A stretch of 64,000 bases of DNA, taken from NCBI RefSeq assembly GCF_027111295.1, contig NZ_CP114287.1:2170001-2234000 (forward strand), given 5' to 3'. This stretch comes from Flavobacterium gelatinilyticum (GTDB taxonomy: Bacteria; Bacteroidota; Bacteroidia; Flavobacteriales; Flavobacteriaceae). The notes beneath the pieces are model-generated. The model made no database searches, had not been told where the DNA came from, and saw nothing but the letters and a program-made list of their open reading frames with translations. Position numbers and translations under genes: made by a program. Shown here piece by piece: positions 31,173 to 46,236 of the stretch (its first letter is position 1; each line of letters begins with the position of its first letter).

Positions 31173-33176
31173 TTATTTTTTAAAGTTTTTAATTCCGCTC
31201 TGAAGCCAATTATAATATTCCTCGATATCAGGATTATAAGCTGACGGCTCCGTCAGGTTTGCACTATTATGATCTACAATTACATAAAAAGGCTGTGCAT
31301 TTGCCTTATAGGTTTTGATTTGCAAATCGCTCCATTTGTTCCCAATGGTTTTAATTTTTTTTCCTGTTGTTTCAGAAACATATTGTTCGTTTTCCGGAAG
31401 TTCTTTTTTGTCGTCTACATAAAGCGAAATCAAAACAACATCATTATTTAAAACGCCCAAAACTTTTGGGTCTGACCAAACCAGTTCTTCCATTTTTCGG
31501 CAGTTTACGCAGGCATATCCTGTGAAATCCAGTAAAACCGGCTTTCCTGCTTTTTTCGCATATTCCATTCCTTTGTTGTAATCGTGGAAAGTTATAATAT
31601 TCTGCGGACCGTGTTCTGCGCCTTCCGGTAATGAACCTGTTATTTTTAGATCGGAATTGCCCGAAACTCCCAGTCCGTTTGGCGATTCGCTGTACTGCAT
31701 TGGAGGGGAAAATCCGCTGATTAATTTTAAAGGTGCGCCCCAAAGCCCGGGAATCAAATAAATTGTAAAACTTAAAACGATCAATCCTAAACCTAATCTT
31801 CCTACGGAAATATGATTTAACGGTGAATCATGTGGCAATGTAATTTTTCCGAATAAATAAAAAGCCAGCATTCCGAAAACGGCAATCCAAATGGCTAAGA
31901 AAACTTCTCTTTCTAACCAATGCAGCTGCAAAACTAAATCGGCATTGGATAAAAATTTGAAAGCCAGAGCCAGTTCCAAAAATCCTAAAACTACTTTAAC
32001 CGTATTTAGCCAGCCGCCTGATTTTGGCAGTGCGTTTAACCAGCCCGGAAAAGCAGCAAATAATGAAAACGGTAATGCAATAGCAATCGAAAATCCTAAC
32101 ATTCCCACAATTGGCGCTATACCGCCTTTTGAAGCTGCTTCAACCAATAAGGTTCCTACGATAGGTCCGGTACACGAAAATGATACTATGGCTAAAGCCA
32201 AAGCCATAAAGAAAATCCCGATAAGTCCTCCTCTATCGGCTTGTGAATCGACTTTGCTGGCTAATGAACTTGGCAGTACAATTTCGAAAGCACCCAGAAA
32301 TGAACAGGCAAAAACGACCAATAAAATAAAGAATATCAGATTGAACCAAACGTTTGTTGAAAGCGCATTCAGCGAATCGGCACCAAAAACTGCGGTTACA
32401 ATTGAGCCTAATAAAACATAAATAATGACAATTGAAATTCCGTAAATCATTGCGTTTCGTATTCCTGCCGCTTTGGTTTTGCTTTGTTTGGTAAAAAAGC
32501 TTACCGTCATCGGGATCATTGGAAAAACGCAGGGTGTCAGTAAAGCTGCAAAACCGGATAAGAACGAAATAATAAAAATGCTTAGTAATCCTCTTGACTC
32601 TTCTTTTGGCGGATCAACAGTCATTTTAGTTGTTTTCTCTTCTGCCTGAACAACGGTTTTCTCTTCTGCAATTGCTGTATCTCCTTTTACTGTCTGAATT
32701 TCTTCGGCAGAAGCCGCTTTCTTTTCATTCGGAATTTTGAATGTCAGCTCTTCTGTCGACGGCGGTAAACAACTGGTATCGTCGCAGACCATAAAATCAA
32801 CTTCTCCGGCAATGTTCGAAACATCATCTGAAGTGAATTTTATCTTTTGTGTAAAAAGGGCTTTGTCTTCAAAATATTTGATTTTCATATCGAAGATTTT
32901 ATCGACTGTTTCGTACCCCTTTTCTTCGGTTGTTTTCCCGATTAGTTCGAAGTTTTTCTTCGAATTTTTAAATGTAATTGTTGTTGGCGATGGCCCGCCT
33001 TCTTCGATGTATTGTCCGTATAAATGCCAGCCGGATTGTATTTTAGCCTGGACTTTTAAGATATATTCTTTATCTGATATTTTTTCTACAGATGTGCTCC
33101 ACTTTACCGGATTGTACATTTGTCCGGACATGGCTGCCGAAATCAATAACAGGAATGTAAGTATGGTGTTTTTCAT
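31173..33176 (-). CDS. dsbD: DsbD-type thiol:disulfide reductase
   Basis: This 667-residue inner-membrane protein carries electrons from cytoplasmic thioredoxin to the periplasm. A signal peptide precedes an N-terminal DsbD-alpha-like domain (about 20-160) with its Cys pair in MVCDDTSCLPPSTEEL. The central membrane domain (about 200-480) has its two conserved Cys in LLTPCVFPMIPMTVSFF and VSFSCTGPIVGTLLVE. The C-terminal thioredoxin domain has Cys556 and Cys559 in FTGYACVNCRKMEELVW. All six electron-relay cysteines are therefore present. It is the last gene of locus B and could keep the two TlpA proteins reduced. A terminator-like hairpin sits just before its start, so it may also be expressed separately. 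Confidence 0.93.
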   Translation of the reverse strand: MKNTILTFLLLISAAMSGQMYNPVKWSTSVEKISDKEYILKVQAKIQSGWHLYGQYIEEGGPSPTTITFKNSKKNFELIGKTTEEKGYETVDKIFDMKIKYFEDKALFTQKIKFTSDDVSNIAGEVDFMVCDDTSCLPPSTEELTFKIPNEKKAASAEEIQTVKGDTAIAEEKTVVQAEEKTTKMTVDPPKEESRGLLSIFIISFLSGFAALLTPCVFPMIPMTVSFFTKQSKTKAAGIRNAMIYGISIVIIYVLLGSIVTAVFGADSLNALSTNVWFNLIFFILLVVFACSFLGAFEIVLPSSLASKVDSQADRGGLIGIFFMALALAIVSFSCTGPIVGTLLVEAASKGGIAPIVGMLGFSIAIALPFSLFAAFPGWLNALPKSGGWLNTVKVVLGFLELALAFKFLSNADLVLQLHWLEREVFLAIWIAVFGMLAFYLFGKITLPHDSPLNHISVGRLGLGLIVLSFTIYLIPGLWGAPLKLISGFSPPMQYSESPNGLGVSGNSDLKITGSLPEGAEHGPQNIITFHDYNKGMEYAKKAGKPVLLDFTGYACVNCRKMEELVWSDPKVLGVLNNDVVLISLYVDDKKELPENEQYVSETTGKKIKTIGNKWSDLQIKTYKANAQPFYVIVDHNSANLTEPSAYNPDIEEYYNWLQSGIKNFKK

Positions 33177-33196
33177 TGTTTTTGATTTAATTTTTG

Positions 33197-33228
33197 AAAA
33201 AAAAGAGCTGTCGGAAAAACAGCTCTTT
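33197..33228 (-). terminator. Terminator-like hairpin 25 nt upstream of dsbD start
   Basis: On the minus strand AAAGAGCTGT (33219-33228) pairs with ACAGCTCTTT (33202-33211), followed by a T-run. It lies between the M16 gene and dsbD and leaves only about 20 nt to the dsbD ATG. Confidence 0.7.
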
Positions 33229-33306
33229 GGGGTCTTTCACAGAAAATGGCTTACTAATTCAGATTCTAAAATGAAATAATGAAAGACGATTATTAAAATT
33301 ATTTTT

Positions 33307-33393
33307 TAGTCTCAGTTTTCAGTCTCAGTCACAGTCGCAAACTTGTCAAAGTCCGCTTTTAAAGTGAAAACTGGGACTGGGACTGAGACTAAA
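33307..33393. repeat. CAGTCTCAG word array, inverted, abutting M16 stop
   Basis: Words agtctcagttttcagtctca and gtcacagtc face gaaaactgggactgggactg plus agact. The array lies about 3 nt from the TAG stop of the M16 gene on the minus strand. Related words occur at 36184-36231 and 37402-37450. Confidence 0.78.
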
Positions 33394-33395
33394 GA

Positions 33396-36167
33396 CTATT
33401 TATCAAGCGAACCGGCTTTAATAATAATCATTTTATCCAGCTGAATATATTTCTTAATAGCATCGTTTACCTGCTGTAAAGTTGCTTTTTCTATATCTTT
33501 TGGATATTGGTCGATGTAACTTGGCTCTAAACCTCTTTCGATAAAATTTAAAATTGTTCTTGCCATTCCGTTTGTCGTAGACATTCCGACTTTAAAACTT
33601 CCAATTAAATTGGTTTTCTTATTTTGCAATTCATCAGCCGTGATTCCGTCTTTTACCCATTTATCAACCTGAACCATTGTGGCATCAAGTCCTTTTTGAA
33701 ATAAATCCGGGTTGAAGGAAGCGTTTACAAACCAGTATCCTCCAGTTTCGATGTTGCCATCTAAACCAGAAGAAATGTTATACGTTAAACCGTCATTGTC
33801 ACGAACCGTCTGCATTAAACGTCCGGCAAAACCTGCTCCTAAAGTGTAATTTCCGATGTAAAACGGAATATAATCAGCATCGGCTCTTTTTAAACCTGTA
33901 AATTGTCCGATATACAATTCGGCACTTGGTTTTTCCGGAATGGTTACAACTTCTGTTTTTGCAGCAGATTTTGAAGCTTCTTCAAATTTTAGTTTTTCGG
34001 TAACGCCGCCATTCCAGTTTTTAAATGATTTTTTTAATGAAGCATTTAGGTTTGCACCATCTGTATCGCCTACAATTACCAAGCGCATTGAAGCTGTTCC
34101 GAAATATTTTTTATGGAAAGCTTTTACTTCATCTAAAGATGCATTTTTGATATTGGCGATATTGTCCTCTACGCTTAAGCTGTAATTTGGATTTCCTTTT
34201 GGATAAATTGCCTGCACTAAAGCAATGCTTCCTCTTTCGCCCGGATCGTTCAAATCCTGCTGTGTATTCCCGATAAACTGCTGCTTTAAGTTTTCAAATT
34301 CTTTGGCATCAAACAACGGGTTTCTTAATTCCTCAGCCAATAAAGCAATTACCTGATCTAGATCTTTTTTCAGACATTTAAATCCAATATTAATTTTAAA
34401 TGTTGATGCATTTACGTTGAGGTTTACACCTAATTTTTGCAGTTTTTCCGAGAATTTAAATTTGTCATTCAGCGTTGTTCCTTTTGATAACATTGAAGCC
34501 GTTAATGCCGGAATAATATCATTTTTAGTTTCGCTGGCATAATTTCCTAATGAAATACTTGCTGCAACGGTTACAAAATCTTTTGCTGACGTTTTTACCG
34601 AAACGACATCAATTCCCGACACTTTTTCTCTCTTATAAGCTGATGCTGATTTTTCGATAATGTCTTTAAAAGAAATTCTTTCTTCTGTTGTATTTTTTAT
34701 TGAAACCGGAGCAGATGAAGTTTCTTCATGAGTATGTCCTTCTTCTGAATGTCTGTAATAAAACGGACCATTTTCCGGAATAAAATTATTCGCTTTCGCC
34801 GAATCATTATTTTGAGCTCCCGCTTGTTTCGGAATAAAATATCCGGTTGTGCTTTGGTCTTCAACTAAATATTTATTTGCAACGCGTAAAACATCGGCCG
34901 GAGTTACTTTTTTCAATCGGTCGACTCCTGTAATGTAGTCTGTCCAGTCGCCGGAAGCAATTGCTTCGTTTAATGCCGATGCAATTACGCCGGAACCATC
35001 TCGTGCCAAAATAGTCTGCGCACTGATTTTTGCCACAACTCGATTTACTTCATCCTGCGTTACGCCTTCTTTTTGGATTTTAGCTACAACTTCGCTGATT
35101 TTAGCATCAATATCTTCGTGCTTTGAGGTAGTTGGAAAACCAACCCCAATCGTGAAAAGTCCAACTTCTTTAAAGTTTGTTGCACTTGCGTAAGAATAAA
35201 TTCCCAAACGGGTATCAACAAAAGTTTTGTTTAAAATTGCCGATGGTCCAACACCAATAATCTGAGCCAGAATATTTAAGGCAGGAAGGTCTTCGTGTAA
35301 AGCGCCCGGAATTTTATACGCTTTGTTTACAACGCCCAATTCGCCCGGTTTTTTTACTATTATTTTACGTGCTCCGTATTGCTGCGGTTCTTCGGTGTAA
35401 GGCTGCGGCATTACATTTGGCGCTTTTGTAATTTTTCCGAAATACTTTTCGATTAATTCAAAAACATTGTCTTTTTTGAAATCTCCAATAATCGTTAAAG
35501 TCGCATTATCCGGCCAGTAATAGGTATTGTAGAAATTTCGTAATACTTCGATCGGCGCGTTTTCAATATCTGATTTCCATCCAATTGTAGAATGGTGATA
35601 CGGATGTGCGATATATGCCGAAGCCCAGATTTCTTTGTCTAATAAACTGTTTGGATTGTTTTCGCCGCGCTCAAATTCGTTACGTACAACGGTCATTTCA
35701 GCATCTTTATCTTCTTTTAGCAATAAAGAATTACGCATTCTGTCGGCTTCGATTTGAAGTGCCAGTTCGATTTTATCACTTGGCAGCGTTTCAAAATAAT
35801 TGGTTCGGTCGTACCAGGTTGTCGCATTTAACAGTGCTCCTGTATTTTGCAGAACATCAGTAACAGTGTTTCCATTTTTTTTGTTGAAAGTTGGTGTTCC
35901 TTTAAACATTAAATGTTCTAAAAGGTGTGTTGATCCTGTGTTTCCTAAAACTTCGTGTTTAGAACCTACGCGATATACAATTTGTACGGTTGCAACCGGC
36001 GAAGCATTGTCCTGCAAAAGCAAAATATTCATGCCGTTTGGCTGGTATAAATATTCTTCAATACCACCTAACTCTTTTATTTTCTTAAAGTTACCTAATT
36101 TACTCTGCGCAGAAACAATCGTGCAGAATGCTAGTGAGCAATAGCCCAGGAAGATGTATTTTTTCAT
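33396..36167 (-). CDS. M16-family zinc metallopeptidase (pitrilysin type), periplasmic
   Basis: This is a 923-residue exported peptidase with two M16 halves. After a signal peptide (MKKYIFLGYCSLAFCTIVSA) the first half has the inverted zinc motif HLLEHLMFKGT, with His81, Glu84 and His85, and the third ligand probably in RNEFERGENNPNSLLDKEIW. The second half (about 500-923) keeps the fold (GNYTLGAGFAGRLMQTVRDN) but has no HxxEH, as expected for the structural half of this family. Family members cut peptides that fit into a closed chamber. Its position after SusCD and two thioredoxins suggests degradation of imported, disulfide-reduced peptides. That role is inference. Confidence 0.93.
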   Translation of the reverse strand: MKKYIFLGYCSLAFCTIVSAQSKLGNFKKIKELGGIEEYLYQPNGMNILLLQDNASPVATVQIVYRVGSKHEVLGNTGSTHLLEHLMFKGTPTFNKKNGNTVTDVLQNTGALLNATTWYDRTNYFETLPSDKIELALQIEADRMRNSLLLKEDKDAEMTVVRNEFERGENNPNSLLDKEIWASAYIAHPYHHSTIGWKSDIENAPIEVLRNFYNTYYWPDNATLTIIGDFKKDNVFELIEKYFGKITKAPNVMPQPYTEEPQQYGARKIIVKKPGELGVVNKAYKIPGALHEDLPALNILAQIIGVGPSAILNKTFVDTRLGIYSYASATNFKEVGLFTIGVGFPTTSKHEDIDAKISEVVAKIQKEGVTQDEVNRVVAKISAQTILARDGSGVIASALNEAIASGDWTDYITGVDRLKKVTPADVLRVANKYLVEDQSTTGYFIPKQAGAQNNDSAKANNFIPENGPFYYRHSEEGHTHEETSSAPVSIKNTTEERISFKDIIEKSASAYKREKVSGIDVVSVKTSAKDFVTVAASISLGNYASETKNDIIPALTASMLSKGTTLNDKFKFSEKLQKLGVNLNVNASTFKINIGFKCLKKDLDQVIALLAEELRNPLFDAKEFENLKQQFIGNTQQDLNDPGERGSIALVQAIYPKGNPNYSLSVEDNIANIKNASLDEVKAFHKKYFGTASMRLVIVGDTDGANLNASLKKSFKNWNGGVTEKLKFEEASKSAAKTEVVTIPEKPSAELYIGQFTGLKRADADYIPFYIGNYTLGAGFAGRLMQTVRDNDGLTYNISSGLDGNIETGGYWFVNASFNPDLFQKGLDATMVQVDKWVKDGITADELQNKKTNLIGSFKVGMSTTNGMARTILNFIERGLEPSYIDQYPKDIEKATLQQVNDAIKKYIQLDKMIIIKAGSLDK

Positions 36168-36183
36168 TTTTTTGAGAGATTAT

Positions 36184-36231
36184 TTTTTAGTTTTCAGTCA
36201 CAGTTTTCAGTAATACTGTGACTGAATACCA
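36184..36231. repeat. TTCAGTCACAG word repeat, inverted, after TlpA-1 stop
   Basis: Words ttagttttcagtcacagttt and tcagtaatactgtgactgaa form an imperfect hairpin (cagtcacag facing ctgtgactg). It starts a few nt from the TAA stop of the gene at 36235. Confidence 0.65.
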
Positions 36232-36234
36232 GAT

Positions 36235-37368
36235 TTACGATTTACTGAAAATTTCTTTAAGTTTAGATTGTAATTCAGCTTCTCTTAGGTTTTTAGCAAC
36301 GATTTTTCCGTCAGGTCCAATTAAGTAGTTGGTTGGCACCATTTTTACACCGTATAAAACTGCAGCTTCGTTTTGCCATCCTTTTAAATCAGAAACATGT
36401 GTCCAGGTTAAACCGTCTTTTTCGATTGCTTTTTCCCAAGGTTCTTTTTTTCCATCCAATGAAACTCCCAAAACATCAAATCCTTTATCATGGTATGTTT
36501 TGTATGCTTCAACAACGTTTGGATTTTCTTTTCGGCATGGTCCGCACCAGCTTGCCCAGAAATCTACTAAAACATATTTTCCTTTATAATCTGATAATTT
36601 TACCACTTTTCCGTTTACATCAGTTTGAGAAAATTCAGGTGCTGTAACACCAATGGCTGTTTTTTCGATAAGATCAATAGACTTTTTTAATTTTTTTCCG
36701 TAGAATGATTTTTGAACTTCCGGAGATAAAATTCCATAATATTCTTTTATTTTTTCAGGAGTTCCGTAAGCCACAATTCGGTCTTCAATTACTAATGCAC
36801 CTCCTATATTGTCTTTGTTTTTTCTGATGAATTTATCAGTTAGATCATCTGCCAAATCACCCAGATCTTTCCATTTTTTATCCATCATGGTCTGCTGTTC
36901 CGGAGTTAATTTTACTTTTCCGTTTTGGGTTAACGAATCAGATAATTTGTAAATAGGGCCTGCAACTCCCTGTATTTTTTTGAATTCGTTATCGTAATAT
37001 GATTTGTAGAATCCGTTTTGTACAGATCCCGTTACTTTGGCTATAAACATAGAATCTTTTTTGGCTTCTACTTTTATATCTTCATTGCTCAAAATAAAGT
37101 AGGTTCCATATTCCTGTCCTTTAATTTTAAGGGTGTGAAATAAAGGTTCTGTCACTTTTCCGTTTAAAGTAAAAGCGCCTTCTTTTACGACAGCCGAGTC
37201 AATGATTTTTTTCTCTCCTTTTTCATCTGAATATTCCAGATAAACGGTTCCTTTGTCTAATCCGGCGATGTTTCCGTTGATTGTGTATCCTTCTTTTTTT
37301 GAGCAGGAAGTAATTGCTGCTGAAAGCGCTAAGGCTAAAAAGCCTGATTTTACGATTGTACTTTTCAT
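36235..37368 (-). CDS. TlpA-type thioredoxin lipoprotein with DUF4369 domain
   Basis: This 377-residue protein is a periplasm-facing lipoprotein (SGFLALALSAAITSCSKK). The N-terminal DUF4369-type domain (about 25-120, GYTINGNIAGLDKGTVYLEY) is followed by a helical linker (about 120-230). The C-terminal thioredoxin fold of the TlpA/ResA type has active-site Cys275 and Cys278 in VDFWASWCGPCRKENPN and a cis-Pro in VKMVPTNYLIGPDG. Such proteins reduce or handle disulfides outside the cytoplasm. It lies next to a paralogue that has a cleavable signal peptide instead of a lipobox, within the SusCD-M16-DsbD locus. Its natural partner is unknown. Confidence 0.93.
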   Translation of the reverse strand: MKSTIVKSGFLALALSAAITSCSKKEGYTINGNIAGLDKGTVYLEYSDEKGEKKIIDSAVVKEGAFTLNGKVTEPLFHTLKIKGQEYGTYFILSNEDIKVEAKKDSMFIAKVTGSVQNGFYKSYYDNEFKKIQGVAGPIYKLSDSLTQNGKVKLTPEQQTMMDKKWKDLGDLADDLTDKFIRKNKDNIGGALVIEDRIVAYGTPEKIKEYYGILSPEVQKSFYGKKLKKSIDLIEKTAIGVTAPEFSQTDVNGKVVKLSDYKGKYVLVDFWASWCGPCRKENPNVVEAYKTYHDKGFDVLGVSLDGKKEPWEKAIEKDGLTWTHVSDLKGWQNEAAVLYGVKMVPTNYLIGPDGKIVAKNLREAELQSKLKEIFSKS

Positions 37369-37401
37369 GTGTTATTTTTTATTTATTACGATGTTTTTTA
37401 T

Positions 37402-37450
37402 TTTAAGTCTCGGTATTCTGTCTCAGCTAACTGTAAACTGTGACTGAACT
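37402..37450. repeat. CTGTCTCAG word repeat after TlpA-2 stop
   Basis: aagtctcggtattctgtctc, then aactgtaaactgtgactgaa, an imperfect set of cag/ctg words, lies directly after the TGA stop at 37455. It shares vocabulary with the arrays at 33307 and 36184. Confidence 0.6.
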
Positions 37451-37454
37451 GAAA

Positions 37455-38651
37455 TCACGATTTCAAAAGTTCTTTTAGTTTTGCTTCTAATTCGGCTCCT
37501 CTCAAATTTTCTCCAATAATTACGCCTTTACCGTCTACTAAATAAGTTGCCGGAATTGCTTTTACGTTAAATGATTTACTCACTTTATCGTCGTCTAAAA
37601 GATTGTGCCATTGCATATTTTCCTGTCCAAGTGCTTTCTGCCATGCTTTTTCATCTTTATCAATAGAAACACTTAAAATTTCAAATCCTTTTGGAGCATA
37701 TTCTGCATAAGCCGTTTTTAGGTTTGGAATTTCTTTTCGGCATGGACCGCACCAGGAAGCCCAAAAGTCTACTAATATATATTTTTTTCCTGCAGTAATA
37801 TCTTTTGCATTGAATGTTTTTCCGTCTTTATCTTTTAATCCAAAATTGGCAATACTTGTTCCTACTAACGATTTTGGATTCAAATCTTTATCGACTAATT
37901 GTCCGTAGTAGCTTTTTTTTGCTGCATCAGAAAATTGTTCGTAAAGCGGTTTTTGTTCCGGTGTAAAGTAGCTGAACTGTGTCATCATAAAAAACGGTCC
38001 CCACCAGTTTGTTTTATGTTTTGCAATTAAGTTTGTTGTTAATAATTCTACTTTCGTAAAAAATGCTTTTTCGTCTGCTTCAAACTTTTTCCATTGTGCT
38101 GTGGCAGAAACAGAGTCCATAAGTTTTTTATTTCCTTCTTTTCTTGCTTTGCCAATCAGATTGCTAAGTTCGTTTATTCCTACATGATAATCAGCATAAT
38201 CTTTATTCAATTCTTCTTTAAAAGCTGTTTCTTTTAGATAATAATCGTGCGATTTAGAACCTGTAACGACTACATCTTTAAAACTGATCCATTCTCCTTC
38301 CTGATCTGAAACTGTACCGGCTGCTGTAATTTTTATTTTTGAATTTTCGACCATTACAGAAATATTTCCTTTGCTTTTACCAAAGACAACATAGAAAAAA
38401 CGAGGTTCTTTTAATTTTCCTGTAAAAGTAAATTTCCCGTCTTTTAATGCTGCTTCAGCAACCGGCAGTTCAGAAGAATGTGTGGCTCCCGGAATCAGTT
38501 TTACAGCTGTTCCGTCTGTTAATCCTGTGATATTTCCCTCAATTGTATAAGAAGAAACCGGAGCTGTTTTTTTTGTCTGCGCCTGAACGTTAACAGAGGC
38601 CATAAACAAACAGAGACAGGATCCTAATATTTTGTATTTAACTGCTTTCAT
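37455..38651 (-). CDS. TlpA-type thioredoxin with DUF4369 domain, soluble periplasmic paralogue
   Basis: This 398-residue protein has a cleavable signal peptide (CLCLFMASVNVQAQ) without a lipobox. A DUF4369-type domain (SYTIEGNITGLTDGTAVKLI) spans about 30-130 and helices about 130-260. The TlpA thioredoxin domain has Cys301 and Cys304 in VDFWASWCGPCRKEIPN and a cis-Pro in VKAIPATYLVDGKG. The architecture equals that of the neighbour at 36235, so the pair arose by duplication, and the two proteins probably differ in location. It starts 65 nt after susD, across a hairpin. It may reduce disulfides of imported cargo or of outer-membrane components. Confidence 0.93.
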   Translation of the reverse strand: MKAVKYKILGSCLCLFMASVNVQAQTKKTAPVSSYTIEGNITGLTDGTAVKLIPGATHSSELPVAEAALKDGKFTFTGKLKEPRFFYVVFGKSKGNISVMVENSKIKITAAGTVSDQEGEWISFKDVVVTGSKSHDYYLKETAFKEELNKDYADYHVGINELSNLIGKARKEGNKKLMDSVSATAQWKKFEADEKAFFTKVELLTTNLIAKHKTNWWGPFFMMTQFSYFTPEQKPLYEQFSDAAKKSYYGQLVDKDLNPKSLVGTSIANFGLKDKDGKTFNAKDITAGKKYILVDFWASWCGPCRKEIPNLKTAYAEYAPKGFEILSVSIDKDEKAWQKALGQENMQWHNLLDDDKVSKSFNVKAIPATYLVDGKGVIIGENLRGAELEAKLKELLKS

Positions 38652-38671
38652 TTTTGATTGATATTTTAGAA

Positions 38672-38710
38672 AAAGCTTCCCTTTCGGGGGAATCCTGATC
38701 AGGAAGCTTT
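38672..38710 (-). promoter_or_regulatory. Intercistronic hairpin after susD of locus B
   Basis: AAAGCTTCC (38672-38680) pairs with GGAAGCTTT (38702-38710). Inside the loop region is the palindrome TCCTGATCAGGA (38693-38704), which overlaps the right arm, so two alternative folds exist. It lies 6 nt after the susD stop and has only a short T-rich stretch on the minus side. Confidence 0.5.
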
Positions 38711-38716
38711 AGGTTA

Positions 38717-40132
38717 TTATTTTTCTACGTTTTGCGTTAAAGTTCCGTTACCCGGATTTTTAAAGGCGCCCTGCGGGAAAGGCATAGTCCATAAATGAGA
38801 TTCCGGAGATAACGTATAAGTTGTACCGCCTGCTGTTTTTGTGAAACCAACTTTGTAAACTCCTTCTGCATTTAAACGACGGGCATCTGCAAACGGAATA
38901 AGTGTTAAAATAAGTTCGTTGTTTTTAGTTCTGAAAATCGCATTCAGGGCCGTTGTTTTATCAGTTGTTACAATATCCTGATAAGAAGCTGCAAGAATAC
39001 GCGTTTTACGAACGGTGTTTAAAACGCCCAATGCATCGCTGATCTGATTGGCACGTGCAAGGCATTCGGCTTTAATCAAATACACCTCAACGGTGGTCAT
39101 ACCTGCATAGTTAAAAGAACCCGAAAGTGTTCTTCTGTAATAGGTTTCTGCTCCTACCGTTCTGATTTTCCAGCGGGAAATAAAGCGGGCATCGCCGGTT
39201 TCAAATCGCTGTGCACGTTCTACCGGAATGTCGTATTCTGTAATTAATGTCGAATACGAATAAATCTGCTGGCTGTGACGCATATTGTAGTTTTCTACAT
39301 AATTATATCCCATTGGCGAAACTGTTGTCGTATACGAATTCGGAACATCGATAATGGCTTTATTTGTTTCGTAATAGGCTTTCCAGTCGTATAATTTATT
39401 GTTTTCTGCCAATGCTAAGTCAGCATTTTTTAAAGCTTCGGTATAATTGTTCATCTGAAGATATACTCTTGCGCTGAAAGCATAAGCTGTACCCAGATTT
39501 GGATGCAGAATAGTTTGTGCTGTTTTTGGCAGATACGGAATCGATTCTTTAATATCGGCTAAAATAAAATCATACATTTCCTGAATCGTTACCTGTCTGC
39601 TTGGTGCATTAATATTGGCGCTGGTAATTAACGGAACTGATAATTTTGTTGCGGCCGTAGATGCCACATATGTGTCTGCATAAAAATTTACAAGATTGTA
39701 GTATGACATGGCGCGCAGAATTTTAGACTGTGCCCAAACCGTTCTTTTTTCTGCTTCGGTTGCATTTGTTGCGGTTAATACATTTTCTATCAACAAATTG
39801 CAAGTCGAAATTGATGCATATCCTGCATAATAAGCCGTTTCATCTGATGGTTTTAACTGGATACGGTCTGCTTCTTCATCCCACATATAATTGGCACTTG
39901 CCAGACGGTCGTTTGACAAGGCTGCTATTCCTAAAAAACGGTCGTTTAATAAGTCTGAAGCTCCTTTGGCTTCTACCCTGAAATTGTATTCGTCGCGCAG
40001 GAAAGCTTCAAAATCTGCTAATGTTGCGGGTGCTTTGGCTCCCTTTGGCACATCATCTAAATAATTCTCGCAAGAGGCAAAAGTTAATCCTAAAACTAAT
40101 AAGCCCACTACATTTTTATATATTTTTTTCAT
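38717..40132 (-). CDS. SusD/RagB-type lipoprotein (locus B)
   Basis: This is a 471-residue outer-membrane lipoprotein with lipobox LVLGLTFASCENYLDDVPKG. SusD-type features include AQSKILRAMSYYNLVNFYAD, GTAYAFSARVYLQMNNYTEA and the C-terminal NELILTLIPFADARRLNAEG. It follows susC by 17 nt. No glycosidase lies in this locus, so its ligand need not be a glycan; the RagB branch of the family binds peptides. That comparison is by context only, since family sequences alone do not separate the two classes. Confidence 0.93.
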   Translation of the reverse strand: MKKIYKNVVGLLVLGLTFASCENYLDDVPKGAKAPATLADFEAFLRDEYNFRVEAKGASDLLNDRFLGIAALSNDRLASANYMWDEEADRIQLKPSDETAYYAGYASISTCNLLIENVLTATNATEAEKRTVWAQSKILRAMSYYNLVNFYADTYVASTAATKLSVPLITSANINAPSRQVTIQEMYDFILADIKESIPYLPKTAQTILHPNLGTAYAFSARVYLQMNNYTEALKNADLALAENNKLYDWKAYYETNKAIIDVPNSYTTTVSPMGYNYVENYNMRHSQQIYSYSTLITEYDIPVERAQRFETGDARFISRWKIRTVGAETYYRRTLSGSFNYAGMTTVEVYLIKAECLARANQISDALGVLNTVRKTRILAASYQDIVTTDKTTALNAIFRTKNNELILTLIPFADARRLNAEGVYKVGFTKTAGGTTYTLSPESHLWTMPFPQGAFKNPGNGTLTQNVEK

Positions 40133-40149
40133 TGTTTAGTCTTTTTAAA

Positions 40150-43100
40150 TTAGAAATTAACATTTACGCCAAAAACAAAACTCGGAGACTGGAAGCCGTT
40201 TAAAATGAATTTTGCGTCTCTTGATTTAGCTGCAGTAAATACATTTTCTGCGTTTAAATTAAAACGTACTCCGTCTAATTTTGCTCTCTGAATCAGTTCT
40301 TTTGGCAGTTGGTAAGACAAAGAAACGTTGCTTAATCTGACATTTGAGGCATCCAAAATATTAATATCTGCATACGAGTAAATGGTACGGGATTCAGAGT
40401 TAAATTCCGGTTCGTATTCGTAAACGGCTCTTGGCACATTGGTAAAAGCCTCATCTCCCGGTTTCATCCATCGGTCTGCAATATGATTGTTAACCGTTGA
40501 AATAGTGGTTACATAACCGCCCATTGAACCTGAGTATTCATTGCCTAACATTGGCAGGAATGTGTTTCTGATTTTATGTCCTAACTCGTAAATGAAAAGT
40601 GCCGAAAGTGAGAAGTTTTTGTATTTAACCGAAGTATTAAATGAACCGCTGTGCGTAGGTACTGTTGATCCAAAATCTTTGATAGATCCTAAACTTCCCG
40701 GATTGTATACAGTTGCATTTCCATCTGCATCGTACACCTGAGGTAATCCTTTATCACTTAAACCTGCCCATTTGAAACCATAAATAGAGTTAAAATCGTT
40801 TCCAACTCTTGGGAAAGATTTTGGATAATCCAGTTGTAATATATAAATCGGTGCTTCAACATTTACGTAATCGACTTTGTTTTTGTTATGAGCATACAAA
40901 ACGCCGGCATCCCATGAAAATGAAGGTGTTTTTACGATTGTTCCTCTTAAACTAACCTCGATCCCTTTGTTAGTCATTTCTCCATTGTTGATGGTGTATG
41001 TTGAATATCCCCATCCTTCTGTCGGGATTCCCTGGCTGCTTGCTAATAAGTCCTGTCCTTTTTTGTTGTAAAGATCAAAAGTTCCGCCTAATCTGTTTTT
41101 AAAGAATGAAAAATCCAGACCCAGGTTGGTTGTTGTTGTTTTTTCCCATGATAATTCAGGGTTTGGTCTTTTGTTGACAGATCCCTGACTTCCGCCAACA
41201 TTAGGGTTTGAATTGTAATAGGCTGTTAAATACGGAGCTGAATCTTTGGCTACGTTACCTCCAATACCGTAAGAAGCACGAACTTTAATTGCGTCTACCC
41301 ATGAAACGCTGAAGAATGATTCGTTAGCAATATTCCATCCTGCTCCTGTTGACCAGGTTGGTTTATTTTGGTATTTACTGTCTGTTCCCCAAAGGTTCGA
41401 ACGATCCCAGCGAACACTTCCAGATACAGAATATCTTCGGTCATAGGTATACCCTCCTGTTCCGTAAACCGAAACGTAACGGTTTTGCAGTTCTTTTTCT
41501 AATGAAAAATTATCCTGAATCATATAGCCGCCAAAAACGGTTCCGTATACTTTAAGAAGATCGGCCTGATTGATTGGTGTGTAAGCTAATGTCTGGTCAT
41601 CATAACCGTAACGGGTATTATCGCTGTATTCTAATTTTGTATGACGAATTTCCATACCGGCAATGGCAGAAACATCGTGTTTACCATTAAAAGTCTGCTC
41701 GAAGTTTAACTGCTGACGGAAATTGTAAGCATTTGTGAACTGATTGGTTTCTTTTATAATGTCGCCATAAGGCAAATTAAACGTTGGTGTTGTTCCTGAA
41801 ACGGTTACTAAACTGTTTACCAGACTTCTAACATTAAATGAATCTTTACTTCTTAACTGGCTGGCGCGATCTGAACCGTATTCATACTGAAACATCGCGT
41901 TGTAGGTAAAGGCACGGCTGAATTTTACATTGAATTTGGCAAAAGTTCTGTTCAGGAAGTTTTTGTTTTCTGTTAAATTTCTTCCGAACTCATCCATTGG
42001 CGTGATATCCATATTGTAAAGTCCGTAATTCTGCATAGACTGAAGCGTAAAGTTGTTGTAACGAGACGCTGCAGTTGAAACGAAATTCGTTCCGTCATTA
42101 TTCACCAATTGATTGTATGGCTGATATTTAAAACCAGGATTGTTCGCCATATAGCTCTGCGTATCTCCTAATTCATAATTGATATATGTTCCTAAATCAA
42201 GAGAAAGCCAGTTGTTAATCTGAGTTGAATTTTTAAGATTAATACCAATTGACTGATTATCTGAAAAACGATCTTCAAGCTGGTTGTTTTTATAAGTTAA
42301 GGAAGCATTAAACGCATTCGATTCTGTTGCTTTCCCTAAACTGATATTATGCTGCATAAAATACTGATCGCGTTTTGCATATCTCGCAATATCATTGTAA
42401 TATTTGTAGCCTTGTGAACCCAATGTGTTCAAACGGTTGTTCATTTCTGTCTGCGAAATATTTCCTGCATACCCGTTTAAAATGGTATTCATTCCTAAAC
42501 TTGTAAATACCGCATTGTTAAGCAGTGACTGAGCGTAAGTTCCCGCATTTGCTCCCTGTAAATTTGGATTTCCGTTTGCCCATCCTCTTTCCAGACCTAT
42601 AATATCTGCAGAATCTGTCAGGTTTCCGGTATAGTTTCTATAAGGTTTAACGGTTAAGTTACTTGAAAACGAAATGTTTGATTTTCCTGATTTTGCTTTT
42701 TTAGTCGTAATTACCACTACTCCATTTGCTGCACGTGCTCCGTAAATAGAGGAAGCTGCGGCATCTTTTAAAACCGTAATGGTTTCAATATCTTCTAAAT
42801 TCAGGCTTGGCACATTTTCTTCGATAGAAGCATATGGAGTCAGTTTTGTACTTTCTACCGGAAATCCGTCTATAACATACAATGGCGATGTTACGCCTGT
42901 CATAGAAGTCGTTCCACGAATTTTACCATCCTGATACCCTGCGATACGTCCTTCCAGAATCGAATTCAAACTGCTTAAACGCTGTTCCTGAAAATCTTTT
43001 GTTTTTAAGTTTGAGAAGGATCCCGTTACCTGTTCTGCCGCAATATTCTGGTATCCTGTTGTTAACACCAAACCTTCGAGTTCCATTGCATCTTCTTTCA

Positions 43101-43722
43101 GGACAACGTTAATTACGCTTCTTCCATCTACTTTAATTTCCTGTCTTGCATATCCTAAATAAGAAAAAGCCAATGTTGTTTCGCTGCTTACGGCAATAAT
43201 CTGATAATCTCCGTTAAAGTCGGTATTTACACCTCTTCCTGATCCGTTATCTGCAACTGCTGCACCTACTAAAGGCATTCCTTTTTCGTCTGTAACACGT
43301 CCTTTTACTATAAAATCGGCCGCTTCTTTTTTTGCTTCAATTGGTTTTTCAACCGGAGCTTTTTTAGCCATCAAAATAATATGTTTTCCGGATACTTTGT
43401 AATCTGTGCTGGTATCTTTAAAAATAGTATTTAAGATATTTTCTATAGAAGTATTTTCTAAATTAACATCGATTGTTCTGTTTAAATCAACAGATCTTAC
43501 ATTGTAAACAAATTGGTAATTGGTAGTATATTCCAGTTTTTCAATTGCTTTGGCAACTGACATATTACTGGCATTGAAAGACATTTTTGCCTTTTGGGAG
43601 TACGTTACTCCCGCCTGCATAACCGTGAAAGTGGTTAATAAAAATAATGTGGTCAATTTCATCTTCAGATCGAATTGCAAAAAAGGCTTGTCGAACCTAA
43701 TTCTGTTCAATAGTTTTTTCAT
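40150..43722 (-). CDS. SusC/RagA-type TonB-dependent importer with STN signalling domain (locus B)
   Basis: This 1190-residue outer-membrane importer has a long N-terminus with a signal peptide ending near VMQAGVTYSQ. An STN (secretin/TonB short N-terminal) domain spans about 50-115 (VAKAIEKLEYTTNYQFVYNV, TIDVNLENTSIENILNTIF). Next come a carboxypeptidase-regulatory-like domain (VTDEKGMPLVGAAVADNGSG) and a plug (LVLTTGYQNIAAEQVTGSFS, SSIYGARAANGVVVITTKKA). The barrel ends with PSFVFGVNVNF. STN domains contact an anti-sigma factor, and a FecR gene lies directly upstream, so this is a transducing importer that reports its own cargo. A Met at residue 21 is a possible alternative start. Confidence 0.95.
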   Translation of the reverse strand: MKKLLNRIRFDKPFLQFDLKMKLTTLFLLTTFTVMQAGVTYSQKAKMSFNASNMSVAKAIEKLEYTTNYQFVYNVRSVDLNRTIDVNLENTSIENILNTIFKDTSTDYKVSGKHIILMAKKAPVEKPIEAKKEAADFIVKGRVTDEKGMPLVGAAVADNGSGRGVNTDFNGDYQIIAVSSETTLAFSYLGYARQEIKVDGRSVINVVLKEDAMELEGLVLTTGYQNIAAEQVTGSFSNLKTKDFQEQRLSSLNSILEGRIAGYQDGKIRGTTSMTGVTSPLYVIDGFPVESTKLTPYASIEENVPSLNLEDIETITVLKDAAASSIYGARAANGVVVITTKKAKSGKSNISFSSNLTVKPYRNYTGNLTDSADIIGLERGWANGNPNLQGANAGTYAQSLLNNAVFTSLGMNTILNGYAGNISQTEMNNRLNTLGSQGYKYYNDIARYAKRDQYFMQHNISLGKATESNAFNASLTYKNNQLEDRFSDNQSIGINLKNSTQINNWLSLDLGTYINYELGDTQSYMANNPGFKYQPYNQLVNNDGTNFVSTAASRYNNFTLQSMQNYGLYNMDITPMDEFGRNLTENKNFLNRTFAKFNVKFSRAFTYNAMFQYEYGSDRASQLRSKDSFNVRSLVNSLVTVSGTTPTFNLPYGDIIKETNQFTNAYNFRQQLNFEQTFNGKHDVSAIAGMEIRHTKLEYSDNTRYGYDDQTLAYTPINQADLLKVYGTVFGGYMIQDNFSLEKELQNRYVSVYGTGGYTYDRRYSVSGSVRWDRSNLWGTDSKYQNKPTWSTGAGWNIANESFFSVSWVDAIKVRASYGIGGNVAKDSAPYLTAYYNSNPNVGGSQGSVNKRPNPELSWEKTTTTNLGLDFSFFKNRLGGTFDLYNKKGQDLLASSQGIPTEGWGYSTYTINNGEMTNKGIEVSLRGTIVKTPSFSWDAGVLYAHNKNKVDYVNVEAPIYILQLDYPKSFPRVGNDFNSIYGFKWAGLSDKGLPQVYDADGNATVYNPGSLGSIKDFGSTVPTHSGSFNTSVKYKNFSLSALFIYELGHKIRNTFLPMLGNEYSGSMGGYVTTISTVNNHIADRWMKPGDEAFTNVPRAVYEYEPEFNSESRTIYSYADINILDASNVRLSNVSLSYQLPKELIQRAKLDGVRFNLNAENVFTAAKSRDAKFILNGFQSPSFVFGVNVNF

Positions 43723-43862
43723 ACTTTTAAAATGTTTTTTAATGTTGGTTGGTTAATTAACTGATCGCATTTATTCTACCGGGAAGTGTTGGCGCATTTT
43801 CCGGTTTTTTTATTTAATGCAGATCCTTTTCTTGCGGACTGTTGTTACATAGGCTTCTTTAT

Positions 43863-44110
43863 TTTAGATTTCTGATTTTAGATTTTAGATTGGCTCAGCA
43901 TACCGCTGACTTTTTTACATCTTAGATTTCTGATTTTAAATTTTAGATTCGCTCAGCATAACACTGACTTTTTTACATCTTAGATTTCTGATTTTAGATT
44001 TTAGATTGGCTCAGCATACCGCTGACTTTTTTACATCTTAGATTTCTGATTTTAGATTTTAGATTCGCTCAGCATACCGCTGACTTTTTTACATCTTAGA
44101 TTTTAGAGTA
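43863..44110. repeat. 58-bp tandem repeat, four copies plus a partial
   Basis: Units begin at 43863, 43921, 43979 and 44037, and a partial unit begins at 44095. Each unit is tttagatttctgattttaga words, then a core ggctcagcataccgctgact and tttttacat. The base before gctcag alternates G, C, G, C through the four units. The partial unit ends with tatgctga, which is the reverse complement of tcagcata in the core. Confidence 0.92.
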
Positions 44111-44120
44111 TGCTGAATTT

Positions 44121-44194
44121 TAATTTTTAATTCTCAATTTTTAATTTTTAATTTTTAATTTTTAATTTTTAATTTTTAATTTTTAATTTTTAAT
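44121..44194. repeat. Heptanucleotide array (ATTTTTA)n abutting fecR stop
   Basis: The heptamer tttttaa/atttttaa is repeated about ten times with one interruption (ttctcaa). The array ends at the base next to the TAA stop of fecR on the minus strand. Confidence 0.88.
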
Positions 44195-45349
44195 TTATTT
44201 AATCGTAATCTTATCCCTGTCAATGTTATAATCTATTGCGTAACTGTCGCTGAAATATTTGAGTACTACCTCAATAGGTTCGTTGTCGAAACGGGCGTTG
44301 AAAATTTCTTTACCCAGCATTTTATTCCGATTGATAAAAGTCACATTGTAACGGCGTTCGAGTTTTGCGATAATCTGATCAAACGATTCGTTTTTAAAAA
44401 CCAGGCTTCCTTTTACCCAGGCTGTGTAATAATCTGTATTGACTTCCTCGGTTTTAAATGTTGTTTGTCCTTTTACGTTCGATCCTTTAAAACCGGGTTT
44501 TAAAACTACCTCATTGTTTTTTGTTTTCTCATCTGTATAAAGCGACACTTTTCCTTCAACCAAAACAATATCGGTGCTTGTATTTTCAGTATACGAATTC
44601 ACGTTAAACTTAGTTCCCAAAACCTCCACATTCATGTTTTGTGTATCGACAGTAAACGGATGTTTTTTGTCTTTTGAAACTTCAAAATAAGCTTCTCCCA
44701 AAAGATCAACTTTTCTATTTTGATTTTTTGAAAACTGAACCGGATAACGCAGTGTTGTTCCGGCGTTTAAATGCACAATAGTTCCGTCTGAAAGCTGTAC
44801 TTCAAATTTTTTCCCGTATGGAATTTTCAATGTGTTGTAAACCAATTCGCCTTCGGTATATTCGCTGGTATACACCAGTCTGTTTTTTTCCTGTCTTCCA
44901 ATTACTTTTCCTGACTTATCGGTTATGTTTCGCACTCCTGACGGATCGATCGTCTGGGCAGATTCATTTCCTATCTGCAGCACAATAGCTTCTTCTCGCG
45001 GAATCACCACATTTTGTTTTGGCTCAACTGCATTGGTCGAACTTTTATAAAAATAAAATCCTCCTAAAGCAAAAATTACAATTGCTGCATATTTATAATA
45101 GGACGAAAATCTTCTTTTGTAAAAAACATTATTTTCCTGCTGTATTCTTTCAGATAACTGCTTTTTGACTTCGGCAGAATCAAAATTATTCATCACGGTA
45201 TCTACCGCATAATTGGTTTTTACAAAATCCTTAAATATCTTCTGATTTTCATCTTCTTTTAACCACTCGGTCAGTTCCTCAATTTCATCTTTTGAAGCCT
45301 GATTTGTGATAAATTTAACGATTAATCGCTCTGATTTTTTCGCTGTCAT
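44195..45349 (-). CDS. FecR-family anti-sigma factor
   Basis: This is a 384-residue inner-membrane sigma-regulator. The cytoplasmic N-terminus (about 1-80) is a sigma-binding region (LIVKFITNQASKDEIEELTE). One membrane helix (YKYAAIVIFALGGFYFY) follows near residue 85. The periplasmic FecR domain (TLKIPYGKKFEVQLSDGTIV, VDLLGEAYFEVSKDKKHPF, VEVLGTKFNVNSY) spans about 165-270. A C-terminal DUF4974-type domain (FDQIIAKLERRYNVTFIN) touches the STN domain of SusC. I start at the ATG 45349; a TTG 13 codons upstream is less likely. It is co-directional with susC but divergent from the sigma gene, which is unusual. Confidence 0.94.
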   Translation of the reverse strand: MTAKKSERLIVKFITNQASKDEIEELTEWLKEDENQKIFKDFVKTNYAVDTVMNNFDSAEVKKQLSERIQQENNVFYKRRFSSYYKYAAIVIFALGGFYFYKSSTNAVEPKQNVVIPREEAIVLQIGNESAQTIDPSGVRNITDKSGKVIGRQEKNRLVYTSEYTEGELVYNTLKIPYGKKFEVQLSDGTIVHLNAGTTLRYPVQFSKNQNRKVDLLGEAYFEVSKDKKHPFTVDTQNMNVEVLGTKFNVNSYTENTSTDIVLVEGKVSLYTDEKTKNNEVVLKPGFKGSNVKGQTTFKTEEVNTDYYTAWVKGSLVFKNESFDQIIAKLERRYNVTFINRNKMLGKEIFNARFDNEPIEVVLKYFSDSYAIDYNIDRDKITIK

Positions 45350-45614
45350 TTGCGTTATTTTTAATATTATTACGAAGCCAAAAAACAAAACCCTAACAAT
45401 TTGATAAAGTTTTTTTCATTTTGATGATTTTTTTATTTTTCACAAGTCTTTTCTTTCAGAAAACACGACTAATTTGATAGAAATTATAAGACTGATGATT
45501 TATTCTGACCTTTTTCGCACTTTTTATTTGTACTAATTTTCAAATAGAAACCGGAAAAAAGGAGAAATTTTAATGAATTACGTGTCCTATTTTACCCTTA
45601 AAAATTATAATTTA

Positions 45615-45622
45615 TATATTTG
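45615..45622 (+). promoter_or_regulatory. -7-like element immediately before the sigma factor start
   Basis: TATATTTG matches TAnnTTTG but lies only 2 nt before the first ATG, and no TTG stands 17-23 nt upstream. If used, the mRNA would be leaderless or would start at the second Met (45628). This is a weak call. Confidence 0.3.
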
Positions 45623-45624
45623 TT

Positions 45625-46236
45625 ATGATGACTGCTGATTACCATAATAATGAAATCTTAATTGAGTCTCTTCGCAACGGAGATGAAAAAGCATATACCT
45701 ATTTAATCGATACGTATCATCATAAACTCTGCGTGTATGCGAACAGTCTGGTAAAAAATGTCTACAGCGCCGAAGATATCGTGCAGAATGTTTTTATAAA
45801 AGTCTGGGAACAGCGCACGAGGTTAAAAACCGATCATGCTTTAAAAAGTTTTCTCTACAAACTGGTCTATAATGAATTTATCGATTTGTACCGAAAAAAC
45901 CAGTCGTTGTTTTCTCTTGAAAAATCGTATTACGATGCTTTAAACGGAATTGTTCAGGAAGAGGATTCAGAAGCTTTTCAAAGGGTTTTGAATGCCGTAA
46001 ACAAGGAGATCCAGAATTTACCGCCAAAGTGTAAAGAGGTTTTTATACTGAGTAAAAAAGAAGGTTTAACCAACATCGAAATAGCCGAACATCTGGACGT
46101 TTCCATCAAAACGGTTGAAGCGCAGATTACGAAAGCTTTTTCGATTTTGAGGACTTCTCTTGAAGAAAAGGTAAAGAGTGTTTTGTTTCTTTTGTTTTCT
46201 GCTAAAAAAAAATTCAGACTAAATAATTTAATCTGA
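45625..46236 (+). CDS. ECF-type RNA polymerase sigma factor
   Basis: This is a 203-residue extracytoplasmic-function sigma factor of the Bacteroidota FecI-like group. Region 2 is near 15-85 (YLIDTYHHKLCVYANSLVKN, AEDIVQNVFIKVWEQRTRL). Region 4 is near 120-180 (LPPKCKEVFILSKKEGLTNI, EIAEHLDVSIKTVEAQITKA). It would be held by the divergently transcribed FecR until the SusC importer is engaged, and would then activate susC and probably its own operon. The last codons and the stop lie in a hairpin that may end the transcript. Two adjacent ATG codons compete for the start. Confidence 0.94.
   Translation: MMTADYHNNEILIESLRNGDEKAYTYLIDTYHHKLCVYANSLVKNVYSAEDIVQNVFIKVWEQRTRLKTDHALKSFLYKLVYNEFIDLYRKNQSLFSLEKSYYDALNGIVQEEDSEAFQRVLNAVNKEIQNLPPKCKEVFILSKKEGLTNIEIAEHLDVSIKTVEAQITKAFSILRTSLEEKVKSVLFLLFSAKKKFRLNNLI

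Follow-up and report, generated by a model that had tools for sequence, protein, structure and literature searches.

In Proteobacteria, Fus-type protease-associated import uses a TonB-dependent transporter that is encoded with an M16 protease (i.e., FusA-FusC and YddB-PqqL), and a protein is proposed to be imported and then cut (PMC6793856, PMC6071955). We analyzed a 64,000-nucleotide window of Flavobacterium gelatinilyticum contig NZ_CP114287.1 (i.e., the whole stretch of DNA under study, to which all positions refer) and a locus of eight genes within it (31173..46236). These genes encode an extracytoplasmic function (ECF) sigma factor, a FecR-type anti-sigma factor, a SusC transporter, a SusD lipoprotein, two thioredoxins (TlpA2 and TlpA1), an M16 protease, and the thiol-disulfide reductase DsbD. 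We predict, with a probability of roughly 0.55, that this locus uses SusCD to import a small protein or a peptide as cargo, which is then reduced and digested. On the best reading, it is a counterpart of Fus-type import that is built on SusCD and has an added reduction step.

The locus resembles the Fus systems in that a TonB-dependent transporter is encoded beside a periplasmic two-half M16 protease of ca. 900 amino acids (aa), and sister loci of the same genome use PqqL/FusC-like M16 proteases. It differs by a SusC transporter with a SusD lid in place of FusA and by the addition of thioredoxins, DsbD, and an STN/FecR/ECF switch. The transporter is of the SusC/RagA family (TIGR04056, 551 bits; cut-off, 368 bits) and not of the FusA family. 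The best match of the window M16 was 5euf (200 bits), while FusC (60 bits) and PqqL (55 bits) were matched over an N-terminal stretch only; membership in the Fus type was ruled out, since the window M16 does not belong to the FusC/PqqL subfamily. The M16 of sister locus L100 matched PqqL over its full length (270 bits) and FusC with 150 bits, and those of L098 and L099 are 49% identical to it. The main text of a 2019 survey of Fus systems in Proteobacteria (PMC6793856) contains no mention of thioredoxin, disulfide, or SusD.

Among solved structures, ButCD of Bacteroides fragilis (8YPT and 8YPU; SusC to 8ypt_C, 275 bits) is the nearest to SusC and SusD alike; according to its PDB title, this complex holds the small protein BfUbb. 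The window pair is only about 27% identical to ButCD, and ButC orthology was ruled out, as the window SusC shares 26.6% identity with the genome's own ButC-type copy (L194), itself 48% identical to ButC. The ButC-type loci (L194 to L199) are likewise adjacent to a protease, which is a Met-zincin (DUF5118/DUF5117/DUF4953) directly upstream of and adjoining SusC in all six; thioredoxin and DsbD are not on its strand. RagAB of Porphyromonas gingivalis (6SLI, 6SLN), the cargo of which is peptides, gave a lower match (147 bits for SusC). The SusCD fold by itself does not name the ligand. To our knowledge, no M16, TlpA, or DsbD accompanies RagAB. DsbD-TlpA reducing pathways, of which the classical clients are cytochromes and disulfide isomerases, share with the locus a three-domain, six-cysteine DsbD beside periplasmic thioredoxin-fold partners, but in the window locus DsbD and TlpA are joined by an importer and a protease. 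Sus-type polysaccharide utilization loci (PULs) have a similar one-direction SusCD cluster, in which glycan enzymes stand in place of the thiol and protease genes of the window locus. Two further leads were rejected: according to a table of PMC5429918, a different zinc metallohydrolase adjoins SusCD in the Riemerella-type iron locus, and "M16" in PMC7881567 denotes a mutant number. A prior description of such a composition was not found among open-licence PMC papers. The statement in the preliminary description of this DNA that no system of exactly this composition has been characterized therefore stands within that literature, although Fus-type import (PMC6793856) and RagAB follow a similar logic.

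Differing SusCD and protease sets converge on the same composition, which is our main evidence for one pathway and a polypeptide cargo. In 85 M16-linked loci, SusD falls into 11 types (<40% identity), five of which pair with the window-type M16 and six with PqqL-like M16 (33 to 100% identical to the L100 M16); eight types are accompanied by thioredoxin and seven by full DsbD. The SusCD label changes at least nine times on a tree of 41 M16 sequences (those of the window, of 21 among the 53 type-0 loci, of 16 linked loci of other types, and of 3 loci that lack SusCD), and the protease keeps its identity while the transporter is swapped. For example, L020 and L060 are 89% identical to the window in M16 and 67% in TlpA1 but 34% in SusC. 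Relatives of the window SusD in other genera (25 to 32% identity) were accompanied by thioredoxin in 10 of 14 loci, by a protease in 8 (counting an S9-like hydrolase), by DsbD in 4, and by none of these in 3. These 14 were taken from 30, and the rates are biased, as seven were picked for a thioredoxin already seen beside SusD; among the other seven, three have thioredoxin and four a protease if the S9-like hydrolase found in L209 is included. The full composition, SusC-SusD-thioredoxin-M16-DsbD-ABC-aminotransferase, is present in another genus with a SusD about 26% alike (L205). Non-M16 proteases join or replace M16, i.e., S9 (L099, L210), trypsin-like (L201), and Met-zincin (L192, L207) enzymes, and one Flavobacterium type (L183) carries a retropepsin-like aspartyl protease in addition to M16. 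The earlier proposal that the parts form one pathway thus gains from the conserved order and from the rebuilding of the composition with unrelated SusCD pairs and another M16 subfamily, whereas the position of dsbD behind a terminator (see below) speaks against one step of it.

The distribution of cysteines bears on the client of the thioredoxins. TlpA1 and TlpA2 have one CxxC pair each (C275/C278 and C301/C304, respectively), their other cysteines being confined to the signal or lipid segment, and the lipobox Cys22 of TlpA1 is invariant in 56 orthologues. DsbD has relay cysteines C131, C136, C216, C335, C556, and C559, kept in 95 to 100% of 60 orthologues, plus C291. The window SusC is free of cysteine (as are 52 of 53 orthologues beyond residue 45), SusD has one besides its lipid anchor (51 of 53 orthologues), and M16 has one past the signal peptide (65 of 70 orthologues). 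Since SusC, SusD, and M16 lack cysteine pairs, the importer and the protease offer the thioredoxins no disulfide to reduce. The client is therefore not the import machinery, and the imported cargo is the simplest one. The cargo had been proposed to be a disulfide-bonded peptide or small protein; it is probably proteinaceous, and its disulfide bonding is what we infer.

Gene families of the locus were assigned by Pfam/NCBIfam profile matches. All eight genes are intact, full-length reading frames (Table 1), the sigma gene alone being on the plus strand and the other seven on the minus strand. Gaps of 17, 65, 86, and 67 bases separate the genes from SusC through M16, and 219 bases follow before dsbD. 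The SusC/RagA barrel and the SusD/RagB lipoprotein are both present, and the STN domain of the transporter with the adjoining FecR and ECF sigma genes completes an STN-FecR-ECF gene set. The preliminary description agrees with these results in its gene list, in the single direction of all genes but sigma, and in the intact CxxC pairs, HxxEH motif, and six DsbD relay cysteines. It had also called the locus free of glycosidases, and no glycan-degrading enzyme was found among the profile matches of the proteins in the locus run, while the two other SusCD loci of the window do carry such enzymes. A simple glycan PUL was ruled out, given that carbohydrate enzymes are missing from the run.

Table 1. 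Features of the locus and of the surrounding window
Feature	Position	Strand	Details
ECF sigma factor, 203 aa	45625..46236	+	Divergent from the rest; TIGR02985, 134 bits (cut-off, 126); Sigma70_r2/r4_2
FecR-type anti-sigma factor	44195..45349	-	FecR + FecR_C; ATG start at 45349, longer TTG frame from 45388
Tandem repeats in FecR-SusC gap	43864..44196		58-bp x4.1 (43864-44103), 7-bp x11.3 (44118-44196)
SusC/RagA TonB-dependent transporter with N-terminal STN, 1190 aa	40150..43722	-	TIGR04056, 551 bits; STN, 32.8 bits; Plug
SusD/RagB-type lipoprotein, 471 aa	38717..40132	-	SusD-like_3
TlpA2	37455..38651	-	DUF4369 + AhpC-TSA thioredoxin; WCGPC; signal sequence by eye, predicted soluble periplasmic
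TlpA1	36235..37368	-	DUF4369 + AhpC-TSA thioredoxin; WCGPC; lipobox Cys22 by eye, predicted lipoprotein
M16 protease, fused active and inactive halves	33396..36167	-	Two M16 + two M16_C stretches; HxxEH is HLLEH
Rho-independent terminator-like hairpin behind the SusC-M16 run	33202..33228	-	Conserved in orthologous loci
DsbD thiol-disulfide reductase, three domains	31173..33176	-	DsbD_N + DsbD_TM + thioredoxin; six relay Cys
SusCD locus with GH43, GH5, GH2	~12-23 kb of window
SusCD locus with GH10, SASA esterase, GH35-like enzyme	~48-60 kb of window

The window M16 as a query yielded 67 loci, 64 of which are informative (three have <1 kb upstream). SusD lies upstream on the same strand in 63 of the 64, thioredoxin is present in 63 (upstream of M16 in 62), and full DsbD in 54; the lone exception for SusD and thioredoxin is a Tamlana locus (L065) that has only M16, DsbD, and an aminotransferase. 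The commonest order is sigma (divergent)-FecR-SusC-SusD-TlpA2-TlpA1-M16(-DsbD). The preliminary description had asked for co-occurrence and order of the families to be compared across genomes, and the order is kept in most orthologous loci. SusC is at least 70% identical to that of the window in 47 of the 64 loci. F. johnsoniae (L031) has the genes from susC to M16, with dsbD not beside them; F. anhuiense (L062) is among the species with a linked dsbD. The catalytic motif is kept in 133 of the 134 long M16 proteins collected. Of 8000 proteins scored as TlpA1 homologues, 2599 reached E <= 1e-60; those with a name among the 120 listed are called "hypothetical" or bear ordinary names of the thioredoxin type.

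DsbD often has a SufS-like class-V aminotransferase as its neighbor (L026:15083-16582 and 32 further M16-anchored loci). One could suppose that a cystine-rich or glutathione-like peptide is taken up mainly for its cysteine, its thiols being freed, M16 cutting it, and the SufS-related enzyme using the cysteine. The same-strand occurrence of this enzyme in 33 of the 64 informative loci (mostly right behind DsbD) and in L205 agrees with such scavenging, as does its retained, putatively catalytic cysteine in an RGGWSC segment; the homologue in the window genome (L105:8947-10437) follows a DUF4369 TlpA near a MetN/MetQ-like ABC transporter, a hint of sulfur metabolism. However, the gene does not adjoin the window copy and is missing from the 31 remaining loci, as well as from all six SusD types with PqqL-like M16, and M16 proteases act on polypeptides. 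The enzyme scored 149 bits against an NCBIfam SufS cut-off of 475; with a score so far below the cut-off, its activity is putative. We consider sulfur scavenging an unlikely explanation.

Rather unlikely as well is metal or cofactor piracy as in Fus, in which the thioredoxins and M16 would unfold and cut a small metalloprotein and so free iron or another cofactor. It would fit the PqqL/FusC-like M16 proteases of the three sister loci (L098, L099, and L100), the iron-dependent regulation common to PqqL and FusC (PMC6793856), and the ABC genes of some loci (L098, L205, and L211). The window M16, however, lies outside the FusC/PqqL subfamily, and no iron-uptake gene was seen within the locus.

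The import of a polypeptide cargo remains our preferred reading, and the linkage of its parts can be assessed from transcription units and from gene counts. A hairpin with a T-run lies 3' of the M16 gene (33228-33202), ahead of dsbD. Such terminator-like hairpins were found in 31 of 42 M16-DsbD gaps of orthologous loci versus 2 of 189 other gaps (2/47, 0/47, 0/46, and 0/49 by gap class; counts drawn from type-0 loci among L001-L067). The regulated unit is probably susC-susD-tlpA2-tlpA1-M16. Because a conserved terminator lies between M16 and dsbD, the latter is linked yet probably transcribed apart or by read-through, and DsbD was not accepted as the last gene of an operon at the window locus. 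Separate regulation of the M16 and dsbD genes had been named beforehand as speaking against a single pathway, and for dsbD it is indicated in part. At other loci, dsbD precedes M16 within the run (L038, L039, L041, L042, L052, L055, L056, and L100), and its functional tie to the set therefore does not depend on the window locus.

The genome (5.83 Mb, one contig) contains 33 SusD-like_3 matches, four long M16 genes with two halves each, two shorter M16 genes that form a pair, and three full-length DsbD genes. All four long M16 genes sit 3.9 to 7.4 kb downstream of a same-strand SusD; for a gene placed at random, the chance of falling into the 8 kb behind a SusD is 2.2%, and for four together it is ca. 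2e-7, the 8-kb limit having been fixed only after the distances were seen. Two of the three full-length DsbD genes fall in SusCD-M16 loci. Thioredoxin, M16, DsbD, and Met-zincin were found in none of 20 further SusCD loci of the genome (16 kb read per locus). Six more SusCD loci lack M16. The two of the window carry glycan enzymes, another two a Met-zincin, and a fifth a divergent thioredoxin only, and the sixth shows no member of these families; this survey covers all but three of the 33 matches. For later loci, including the 20 controls, families were called with home-made hidden Markov models on greedy open reading frames, and small or divergent genes may escape. Ten genomes of the genus, picked among those already giving search hits, carry 26 long M16 genes, 21 of which are linked to SusCD, the other five being of a third subfamily without SusCD. 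The same genomes have 21 full-length DsbD genes, 10 of which stand apart (one per genome), while each of the 11 extra copies has a long M16 no more than 4 kb away. One M16 survey scored at most two candidates per genome, which makes its copy numbers lower bounds. The linkage counts of M16 and DsbD and the 20 control loci rule out a chance neighborhood.

Thioredoxin, M16, and DsbD also occur in order without SusCD in a genome of 2.6 Mb (L151:1357-7590), and a protease-reductase unit can stand alone. It is nonetheless improbable that the cargo of SusCD is an unrelated nutrient and that TlpA, M16, and DsbD travel along as an envelope quality-control unit: loci such as L151 and L065 (M16-DsbD-aminotransferase) and the terminator ahead of dsbD agree with such side-by-side functions, but the linkage recurs with 11 SusD types and is absent from 20 of 20 other SusCD loci, and few hairpins occur in the gaps from SusD through the thioredoxins to M16 (0/47, 0/46, and 2/47).

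Several results weigh against an import system working as one unit. Outside the family, M16 orthologues (32 to 48% identity) had no SusD with them at any of the 18 loci read. PqqL-like M16 genes are mostly stand-alone outside one Flavobacteriaceae group, and 28 of the 40 PqqL-like loci read do not show SusCD followed by M16. In G115, a SusC/SusD pair 59 to 62% alike is accompanied by thioredoxin and not by M16. Five window-type loci (L013, L018, L028, L031, and L185) have no downstream DsbD despite sufficient flanking DNA, and the conserved terminator appears to weaken the place of dsbD in a single unit. The thioredoxins may also have periplasmic clients other than the cargo; a single VKOR-family match and no DsbB match were found in the genome.

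In the proposed import system, the cargo would be bound at the surface by SusD, which by analogy with its family would lid SusC, and TonB energy would drive its passage through SusC. By analogy with known STN/FecR/ECF systems, the STN domain of loaded SusC may signal to FecR, releasing the ECF sigma factor and raising expression. Electrons would pass from DsbD to soluble TlpA2 and on to outer-membrane-anchored TlpA1, an order suggested by the intact cysteines, the TlpA1 lipobox, and the linkage. TlpA2 and TlpA1 would open the disulfides of the arriving cargo, and the reduced cargo, a putative substrate, would enter the chambered M16 protease and be cut. In some loci, the set is extended by an S9 peptidase, by ABC genes, or by the SufS-like enzyme.

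SusCD pairs are usually taken as glycan importers, which leaves glycosidase-free loci unexplained. We tentatively suggest, at a little less than even odds, that these loci represent a widespread, previously undescribed class of Flavobacteriaceae SusCD importers, i.e., a Bacteroidota equivalent of Fus-type import. Such importers would take up small proteins in folded or disulfide-bonded form and dismantle them with thioredoxin, DsbD, and a protease dedicated to this task in the periplasm, and at least five unrelated families would fill or double the protease slot. The recurrent set of SusCD, thioredoxin, protease, and DsbD would then be a rule by which importers of proteins or peptides can be recognized and would tie a reducing pathway to nutrient import; the cargo of non-glycan SusCDs thereby becomes a testable question in culturable Flavobacterium species.

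We made additional observations on the loci collected. ABC transporter genes replace or accompany thioredoxins in some SusCD-M16 loci (L098 [G000:C1:180001-200000], L205, and L211). A secreted family of ca. 500 aa (U500) lies between SusCD and M16 in eight loci (L039:2800-4302, L037, L041, L042, L044, L052, L055, and L056); two members scanned had no Pfam match, and a likeness to class-I amidotransferases is not trusted, given a weak model (pLDDT, 66; pTM, 0.52) with best Foldseek matches, to enzymes that contain an amidotransferase, at E 0.005. The M16 gene of L037 (L037:9974-12754) is split over two frames and is probably a decayed copy, the genome having further copies (L044 and L059). The third M16 subfamily (L178 to L182; ca. 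903 to 911 aa) is 29 to 30% identical to the window type along its length, and SusCD is missing in the five loci read. No RNA families at gathering score and no tRNA were found in the 64-kb window. Long tandem repeats (58 bp x4 and 7 bp x11) occupy much of the gap between FecR and SusC, the expected site of the SusC promoter.

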